DNA of 64,000 nt from Jiella soli (GTDB taxonomy: Bacteria; Pseudomonadota; Alphaproteobacteria; Rhizobiales; Rhizobiaceae), in assembly GCF_020615385.1 (NCBI RefSeq), contig NZ_JAJAVB010000025.1, positions 85,296 to 149,295 of the forward strand. Direction: 5' to 3'. Shown piece by piece: positions 30,302-34,902 of this stretch. The stretch's first letter is position 1. The number at the start of each line of letters is the position of its first letter. Both the position numbers and the translations under genes were made by a program. The notes beneath the pieces were generated by a model. It saw only the letters and a list, made by a program, of their open reading frames with translations, was not told the origin of the DNA and did no database searches.

Positions 30302-33011
<2,710 letters not shown>

Positions 33012-33025
33012 GCCCGCCCTTGCCT

Positions 33026-33093
33026 GCCGGGGCGGGATGTCCTCCCAAAGGCCTGCCCCGGCTCCCTCCTTCAAAGACAGACGAAGGACATCC
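33026..33093 (+). other. Interleaved complementary segments in cbbL-cbbS gap (possible pseudoknot)
   Basis: A = GCCGGGGC (33026-33033) pairs with A' = GCCCCGGC (33055-33062); B = GGATGTCCT (33035-33043) pairs with B' = AGGACATCC (33085-33093). Both matches are perfect and the order A-B-A'-B' is that of an H-type pseudoknot; alternatively the two stems exclude each other. It lies 14 bases after the cbbL stop and ends 40 bases before the cbbS start, leaving the cbbS ribosome site (AAGGAACC) free. Confidence 0.55.
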
Positions 33094-33133
33094 GGTCCTG
33101 CGACCGCCTTCGCCGCAGCCAAGGAACCAATCC

Positions 33134-33556
33134 ATGCGCGTTACCCAGGGAACCTTTTCCTTCCTCCCCGACCTCACGGACGAGCAGATCACGGCACAGG
33201 TCCAGTACTGCCTCGACAATGGCTGGGCGGTGAACATCGAATACACCGACGATCCGCACCCCCGGAACACCTATTGGGACATGTGGGGCCACCCGATGTT
33301 CGACATCGAGGACGCGGCCGGCGTGATGATGGAACTTGCCGCCTGCCGCAAGGCGCACAGCCATCTCTACATCCGCATGTCCGCCTTCGACTCCACCCAT
33401 GGCTGGGAGTCGGTGAAGCTGTCCTTCATCGTCAACCGGCCGGCCGAGGAACCGGGCTTCCGCCTGCGCCGGCAGGAGAGCCATGGCCGCAACATCCGCT
33501 ATTCGACCGAGCCCTATGCGACGGACAAGCCCGAGGGCGAGCGCTACGCGGTGTGA
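33134..33556 (+). CDS. cbbS: RuBisCO small subunit, form I red-type
   Basis: 140 residues. The N-terminus [18 protein letters not shown] and [16 protein letters not shown]-like core ([17 protein letters not shown]) are typical of red-type small subunits, as is the C-terminal extension [17 protein letters not shown], which forms the beta-hairpin seen in form IC/ID enzymes. It completes the L8S8 holoenzyme with cbbL. Confidence 0.96.
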
Positions 33557-33590
33557 GGCGGAGCGGCCTCGCCGTTGAGGTTCGGGCCGA

Positions 33591-33790
33591 GGCACCCCCC
33601 TCTGTCCTGCCGGACATCTCCCCCACAAGGGGGGAGATCGATCTCGCTCCGACGGGTCGGCCTTGGCTGAGACCCTGAACCCGGCAATGCCGCACTGTTT
33701 GAGCCAGCGATGTTCCAGGACGATCAGCGCGATCGAAGCCGCCTGATCTCCCCCCTTGTGGGGGAGATGCCGGCAGGCAGAGGGGGGTGC
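33591..33790. repeat. REP-like palindromic pair, copy A (converging units)
   Basis: Two near-identical units of about 47 bases in inverted orientation: 33591-33639 and 33745-33790. Each has a C-rich tail (GGCACCCCCCTCTG), a short variable segment, and a hairpin ATCTCCCCC-ACAA-GGGGGAGAT. Tails face outwards here. The intervening 105 bases hold no gene. It occupies the cbbS-cbbX gap. The same unit recurs at 39519-39649 in the opposite arrangement. Confidence 0.8.
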
Positions 33791-33831
33791 GCAAGGGCGC
33801 GGCGAAAATCGAACGAACGGGATGTAAGGTG

Positions 33832-34902
33832 ATGAGCTATCTCGACCAGCTGAACAAAGCTCCCAAGCCGGACGGCACTGCCGCCACGCCGGTCTCAGGC
33901 ACCCAGGCGCCTGACGGCGACGTCACCGGCACGAACGCTGCCGGCGAGGCTGCGACACCTCAGCCGGCACCCACCACCGTCGACCTCCGCCGCGAATACG
34001 AGGAGGCCGGCGTCAAGGAGGTTCTGGAGGAGCTCGACCGGGAGCTCGTGGGCCTTGCGCCAGTCAAGAAGCGCATCCGCGAGACGGCGGCGCTGCTTCT
34101 CGTCGAGCGCGCCCGCCGCCGGCTCGGCCTCGCCCATGAGACGCCGACGCTGCATATGAGCTTCACCGGCAATCCCGGCACCGGCAAGACGACGGTCGCC
34201 ATGAAGATGGCGAACCTCCTTCACCGGCTCGGCTATATCCGCAAGGGGCATCTCGTCTCGGTGACGCGCGACGATCTCGTCGGACAGTATATCGGCCACA
34301 CCGCCCCGAAGACCAAGGACATCCTCAAGAAGGCGATGGGCGGCGTCCTGTTCATCGACGAAGCCTATTATCTTTACCGGCCGGAGAACGAGCGCGACTA
34401 CGGCCAGGAGGCGATCGAGATCCTGCTTCAGGTGATGGAGAACCAGCGCGACGACCTCGTCGTCATCCTCGCCGGCTATGCCGACCGGATGGACAAGTTC
34501 TTCGAATCGAATCCCGGTTTCCGCTCGCGCATCGCCCACCATATCGACTTCCCGGACTATTCGAACGACGAACTCCACCGGATCGCGGTGGGCATGCTGG
34601 AGCGGCAGAACTACCATCTGACCGACGAGGCGGGGACGGTCCTGGCGCGCTACATCGAATACCGGCGGGCGCAGCCGCATTTCGCCAATGCCCGCTCGAT
34701 CCGCAACGCCCTCGACCGGGCCCGCCTCAGGCAGGCGAACCGGCTGTTCGAACAGGATGCCGGACCGCTCGACGCCGCGATGCTGTCGACGATCGCGGCG
34801 GAAGACATTGCCGCGAGCCGCGTCTTCGGCCAGAAGCCGGACATGAAGGCCGAGCATGTTGCCGAGAGCCTGGCCGCCGGGCCGGCGGCCAGAAAGGAGT
34901 AG
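33832..34902 (+). CDS. cbbX: Red-type RuBisCO activase
   Basis: 356 residues, AAA+ ATPase. Walker [10 protein letters not shown], Walker [13 protein letters not shown], pore-loop region [13 protein letters not shown], and sensor region [18 protein letters not shown] match CbbX. It removes inhibitory sugar phosphates from red-type RuBisCO by pulling on the CbbL C-terminus. Family members are near 310 residues; here an Ala/Thr/Pro-rich lead of about 50 residues and a short tail account for the extra length. An in-frame upstream start at 33787 lies in the repeat and is unlikely. Confidence 0.95.

Follow-up and report, generated by a model that had tools for sequence, protein, structure and literature searches.

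The cbbL-cbbS spacer and its interleaved pairs

The window, which is the whole stretch of 64,000 nt that was analysed, carries on its plus strand the genes for the large and small subunits of RuBisCO. The cbbL gene (31554-33011, stop codon at 33009-33011) has a 485-aa translation, and we take its product to be a red-type form IC RuBisCO. It is followed by a 122 nt spacer (33012-33133) and by cbbS (33134-33556), an ORF for which homologues were matched and which begins with the ATG at 33134, behind a Shine-Dalgarno-like AAGGA read from the sequence at 33121-33125.

Two pairs of complementary segments lie within the spacer. Pair A consists of GCCGGGGC (33026-33033) and GCCCCGGC (33055-33062), which are exact complements over 8 bp, and pair B of GGATGTCCT (33035-33043) and AGGACATCC (33085-33093), exact complements over 9 bp. 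A sequence-only reading of this DNA had described them as perfect pairs in the order A-B-A'-B' with one base between A and B, and direct inspection confirms the pairing, the order and the single separating base (33034). Dinucleotide shuffling of the window's spacer recreated the same 8+9 arrangement in 3 of 3000 trials (one perfect stem alone appeared in 395 when 8 bp or more were required, and in 122 when 9 bp or more were), and it is present in 3 of the 1048 overlapping 122 nt tiles (step 61) that cover the window, the cbbL-cbbS tile included. The interleaved pattern is thus rare for any one spacer, yet stands at about the chance level for a scan of 64 kb.

When the spacer is folded, stem A extends to 11 pairs, one of them G-U (33026-33036 with 33052-33062), and closes a 15 nt loop, and pair B is left unused in the minimum free energy (MFE) structure. 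The loop contains the motif CCTCCC (33041-33046), and the MFE structure pairs half of the CCUCC within it. Pair probabilities under nested folding are 0.61-0.995 for A and 0.003-0.005 for B, and forcing B raises the nested MFE from -45.9 to -42.1 kcal/mol, a cost of 3.8 kcal/mol. Taken together with 14 flanking nt, the spacer is no more stable overall than its shuffles (z -1.04, with 29 of 200 as good).

Conservation of the two pairs among relatives

Three cbbS-based searches supplied the relatives: one drew on 29 of 151 genomes, another retained the 80 best of 392 relatives, and the third, at E 1e-76, contributed 21 of 394 genomes. Together they give 127 loci with cbbL directly 5' of cbbS and 103 distinct spacers; the upstream neighbour of cbbS is a tblastn relative of cbbL in all 127. 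Two of these loci (L001 and L002) come from the genome of the window itself and several genomes are present twice, so that the 125 loci from outside the window's own genome include some that are one genome fetched twice. Among the 80 kept from 392, the closest named relatives belong to Aurantimonas, Jiella, Fulvimarina, Mangrovicella and Aureimonas; L112 is a fourth Aurantimonas-like row, with a genus handle common to it and the genome of L003. Spacer ends are approximate in L018, L020, L021 and L030, where the start codon is absent at the inferred place. The distinct spacers are mostly short, with 46 of at most 20 nt, 18 of 21-45 nt and 39 longer, so that the majority of the spacers in the set could scarcely accommodate a hairpin of this kind, if at all.

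Among the 17 distinct spacers that represent the window together with Aurantimonas, Jiella and Fulvimarina, 13 have a hairpin of the A type whose loop contains CCTCC; three (L035, L037 and L039) have no such hairpin and a fourth (L047) has a different one. The 13 were picked from the 17 for their like fold and for CCTCC, and their arms were set by eye from the folds. Trimmed hairpin cores were aligned, since MAFFT alignment of whole spacers misaligned some loops and 3' arms. In the 13 trimmed hairpins (12 of them distinct), 97.5% of 120 cells of stem A hold standard pairs, and two-sided compensatory changes occur at four of the ten pairs, in 11 cells, against a shuffled mean of 2.5; the covariation score is 0.350 against a shuffled mean of 0.156. 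None of 500 shuffles was as high on any of these three measures. Two others are less clear, the number of pairs with a two-sided change being exceeded in 29 of 500 shuffles and that of further pair types in 49 of 500. Controls in which the arms were slid were 41-55% paired and had no two-sided changes. Mapped on the cbbLS tree, pairs 2, 3, 6 and 10 switch type at least two, three, three and four times, respectively; for pairs 6 and 10 these changes include mismatches, one being a G-G in stem A of L031 (A. aggregata), for which the whole-spacer MFE structure takes other pairings. The pattern of substitution argues that stem A is kept by selection as a single conserved RNA hairpin. This hairpin is nevertheless absent from close relatives with spacers of 31-36 nt and is therefore dispensable, and with 64 of the 103 distinct spacers at most 45 nt long and four of the 17 clade spacers lacking it, RuBisCO expression does not require it.

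The sequence-only reading had proposed covariation in related cbbL-cbbS gaps as one of its checks, and a lack of conservation or compensatory change in relatives as a refutation; by this standard stem A stands and pair B fails. Of the 127 spacers, those of L001 and L002, which both derive from the genome of the window, are the only ones with either B arm; in the other 125 loci neither arm was found between cbbL and cbbS. No counterpart of pair B was found in the 12 other distinct hairpin-bearing spacers, where the longest match between the loop and the downstream part of the spacer is 4-6 nt; the shuffle P for this match is 0.03 in L042, at least 0.11 in the remaining others and 0.002 in the window (500 shuffles). 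The proposal of an H-type pseudoknot, of two mutually exclusive stems or of a ligand-responsive switch accordingly loses one of its two stems in every relative sampled. That such a device might work in the window species only draws some support from the two perfect interleaved complements, from their scarcity in shuffles of the spacer and from a 9 nt match that recurs in only 0.2% of the downstream shuffles. Against it stand the restriction of B to one genome, a B pairing probability of at most 0.005, the energy cost of forcing B, the frequency of the arrangement across the 64 kb and the geometry, because a one-base first loop is tight over a 9 bp second stem of an H-type pseudoknot; we regard the device as very improbable. 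Pair B (33035-33043 and 33085-33093) is probably a chance coincidence of one sequence; conspicuous as the interleaved pairing is, conservation in the cbbL-cbbS spacer lies elsewhere.

Position, copy number and loop of the hairpin

The start of stem A lies 9-15 nt past the cbbL stop codon (mean 13.2, SD 1.9), and its end lies 43-143 nt before cbbS (mean 74.4, SD 31.9). The distance is thus nearly constant to the cbbL stop and not to cbbS, which links the element with the 3' end of cbbL; protection of the end of the cbbL mRNA, a function that the sequence-only reading had listed among others, fits this best. A hairpin placed just after the cbbL stop is also found outside the CCTCC kind: 14 of the 26 other distinct spacers of at least 46 nt have a contiguous hairpin in their first 75 nt with a mononucleotide-shuffle P of at most 0.05, and with the CCTCC kind counted the figure is 23 of 39, under a score that allows loops of at most 16 nt with no mismatch or bulge and that missed the true carriers L003/L031, L038, L044 and L112. 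Two of the 14 hairpins (L010 and L097) are parts of large repeats. GC-rich hairpins without CCTCC were seen 9-26 nt past the cbbL stop in L052, L125, L005, L034 (row L004), L053, L071, L073 and L074, from Aureimonas, Mangrovicella, Nitrospirillum, Bradyrhizobium and other lineages; the shuffle P is 0.065 for L034 and at most 0.04 for the remaining seven. These suggest that a hairpin at this position recurs in other lineages.

The hairpin does not have the makings of an intrinsic terminator, as the stem is followed by TCCCTCCT, with three T in eight positions, and not by a U-tract. A terminator scan of 32900-33900 found none, which carries little weight given that its loop limit of 3-8 nt would skip an 11 bp stem with a 15 nt loop; the absence of a terminator is therefore judged from the missing U-tract. 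No sigma-70-like promoter was found by a scan of the same interval. A covariance model located one copy of the hairpin in the 5.5 Mb genome (E 2.4e-6, next 6.95, with 150 of 9864 candidates scored), and an exact pattern search of the genome likewise found one copy. Membership of a dispersed palindromic repeat was set aside on these two single-copy results.

CCUCC is present in all 13 selected hairpins, a constancy built in by their selection on CCTCC. The tree implies no change at the five CCTCC columns of these hairpins, while stems and other loop positions vary; the mean over ungapped columns in the alignment of whole spacers is 2.1 changes, which is inflated by misalignment. Among 254 hairpins in the window (both strands, at least 9 bp, nested versions counted), a CCTCC loop occurs only in two nested versions of the cbb hairpin.

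C-rich loops of this type recall the cuckoo, ar14 and CcsR sRNAs. Two papers describe rhizobial sRNAs with three and four hairpins whose CCUCCUCCC loops are anti-Shine-Dalgarno motifs (PMC3927594), and the ar14 family with CCUCCUCCC loops in the same role (PMC10746234). The cbb hairpin shares with them a variable stem and a constant C-rich loop containing CCUCC(C), and the family is also represented in the window genome. It differs in having CCUCC(C) and not the full CCUCCUCCC, in being one hairpin where those RNAs have two to four, in sitting within an operon spacer and in matching none of their covariance models. RF02344 and RF02791 gave no match in 31400-34000 at E up to 10, where the sole Rfam match was Cis52 (E 8.1), inside cbbL. 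No Rfam match at gathering score was found in nine of the 13 hairpin-bearing loci, and the positive control (L133) hit ar14 four times. Membership of the cuckoo/ar14/CcsR group was rejected for the single CCUCC(C) hairpin, in place of two or more with CCUCCUCCC loops, and for the absence of an Rfam match over the spacer. The control locus (G000:C45:28087-28509, minus strand) lies in the same genome and has eight CCTCCTCCC motifs in hairpin loops; its four tandem matches to Rfam ar14 (RF02344), at 64-83 bits and above gathering, mark it as a tandem cuckoo-type sRNA array. The CCTCCTCCC motif is not enriched genome-wide, with 84 sites versus 133 for the reversed control.

Function of the cbbL-cbbS hairpin

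The stem, its covariation and the selection that this reflects, the loop and the fixed place just 3' of the cbbL stop form the basis for considering function. We lean towards a single GC-rich intercistronic stem-loop, and not a pseudoknot, that would shield the cbbL part of the message at its 3' end. This is the best supported reading, by virtue of position and of analogy with the intercistronic hairpins of the puf operon: here, too, a stable stem-loop lies between co-oriented adjacent genes. The hairpin would fold behind the ribosome terminating on cbbL and, after cleavage of the dicistronic mRNA or during its decay from the cbbS end, would block 3'-to-5' exonucleases; the cbbL segment would thereby be stabilized and the ratio of cbbL to cbbS message adjusted, as in segments of the Rhodobacter puf operon. 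Hindrance of 3'-5' exonucleases by 3' hairpins is described in a review passage among PMC6238624, PMC7509114 and PMC10253847, and hairpins that set segment stability have their type example in the Rhodobacter capsulatus puf operon (Klug et al., 1987; Klug & Cohen, 1990, as cited in these papers). In both cases a hairpin separates cistrons of a single operon, and the products of these cistrons act in one complex. The two cases differ in that puf has several hairpins and the cbb spacer one, that the puf hairpins are credited in a review passage with preventing endonucleolytic cleavage whereas a barrier to 3' exonucleases is what we infer for cbb, and that the cbb hairpin has a conserved CCUCC loop and a stabilizing role that is putative. 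A pure exonuclease barrier does not account for that loop, and we also weighed against the stabilizing role the absence of the hairpin from many spacers, the unremarkable folding z-score and the mismatch in L031.

Ranking second after protection of the cbbL 3' end, and in our view unlikely, is an anti-Shine-Dalgarno hairpin whose CCUCC loop would pair with a ribosome-binding site, either in cis at cbbS or in trans as a released sRNA, in the manner of the cuckoo/ar14/CcsR loops. It would explain why CCUCC is unchanged in the 13 selected hairpins as stems and other loop positions change, and it is in keeping with the anti-Shine-Dalgarno role of CCUCCUCCC loops in rhizobial sRNAs, with the four tandem ar14 matches bearing such loops in the same genome and with the uniqueness of the CCTCC loop among the window's 254 hairpins. 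A swap test, however, found no preference of the loop for the ribosome-binding site of its own cbbS (mean duplex energy -7.55 own versus -7.62 swapped, with own better in 8 of 13). Moreover, the 13 hairpins were picked for CCTCC and four of the 17 clade spacers lack it, a lone hairpin without an Rfam match even at E 10 is not an array of two to four, half of the motif is paired in the window's MFE structure, and CCTCCTCCC shows no enrichment. More doubtful is the specific form in which a solitary cuckoo-kind anti-Shine-Dalgarno hairpin, built into the RuBisCO operon of Aurantimonas and Jiella, would act as a translational brake on cbbS or, freed from the 3' end of cbbL as an sRNA, would link carbon fixation with other genes.

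A partial terminator or attenuator between the two genes, Rho-dependent or acting by pausing and lowering the cbbS message, is to our minds slightly more doubtful again. A strong GC hairpin right after the cbbL stop would suit it, and the cbb operon of Ralstonia eutropha has a partial terminator downstream of cbbS; the want of a U-tract after the stem, the L8S8 stoichiometry, which speaks against a strong loss of cbbS, and, with little weight, the negative scan with its loop limit of 8 tell against it. That the hairpin is functionless and persists through common descent would agree with its absence from close relatives, but the recurrence of two-sided changes on the tree with pairing maintained makes this improbable.

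The post-transcriptional matching of large and small RuBisCO subunits is a practical question, for which a hairpin that covaries and keeps its distance from the cbbL stop provides a testable cis element; it occurs in genera with named strains, and its CCUCC loop can be tested cheaply as well. Intercistronic hairpins are known as a kind. A description of a cbbL-cbbS hairpin was not found in open-library listings, and we do not claim that the cbb element is absent from print. Passages of PMC5506194 and PMC2942843 do not mention a stem-loop between cbbL and cbbS; the former predicts 18 stem-loops, with their positions in a supplementary figure.

Inverted repeats of another sort were seen near these genes. 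By eye, one of the CTCCCCC..GGGGGAGAT kind lies 3' of cbbS, at about 33607-33780 in the window and before the ORF at 33787-34902, which presumably encodes an ATPase resembling CbbX. Three other loci (L010, L082 and L097) have similar repeats between cbbL and cbbS, and the long spacers of L010, L035, L049, L082 and L097 look like large inverted-repeat insertions, apart from the CCUCC hairpin.
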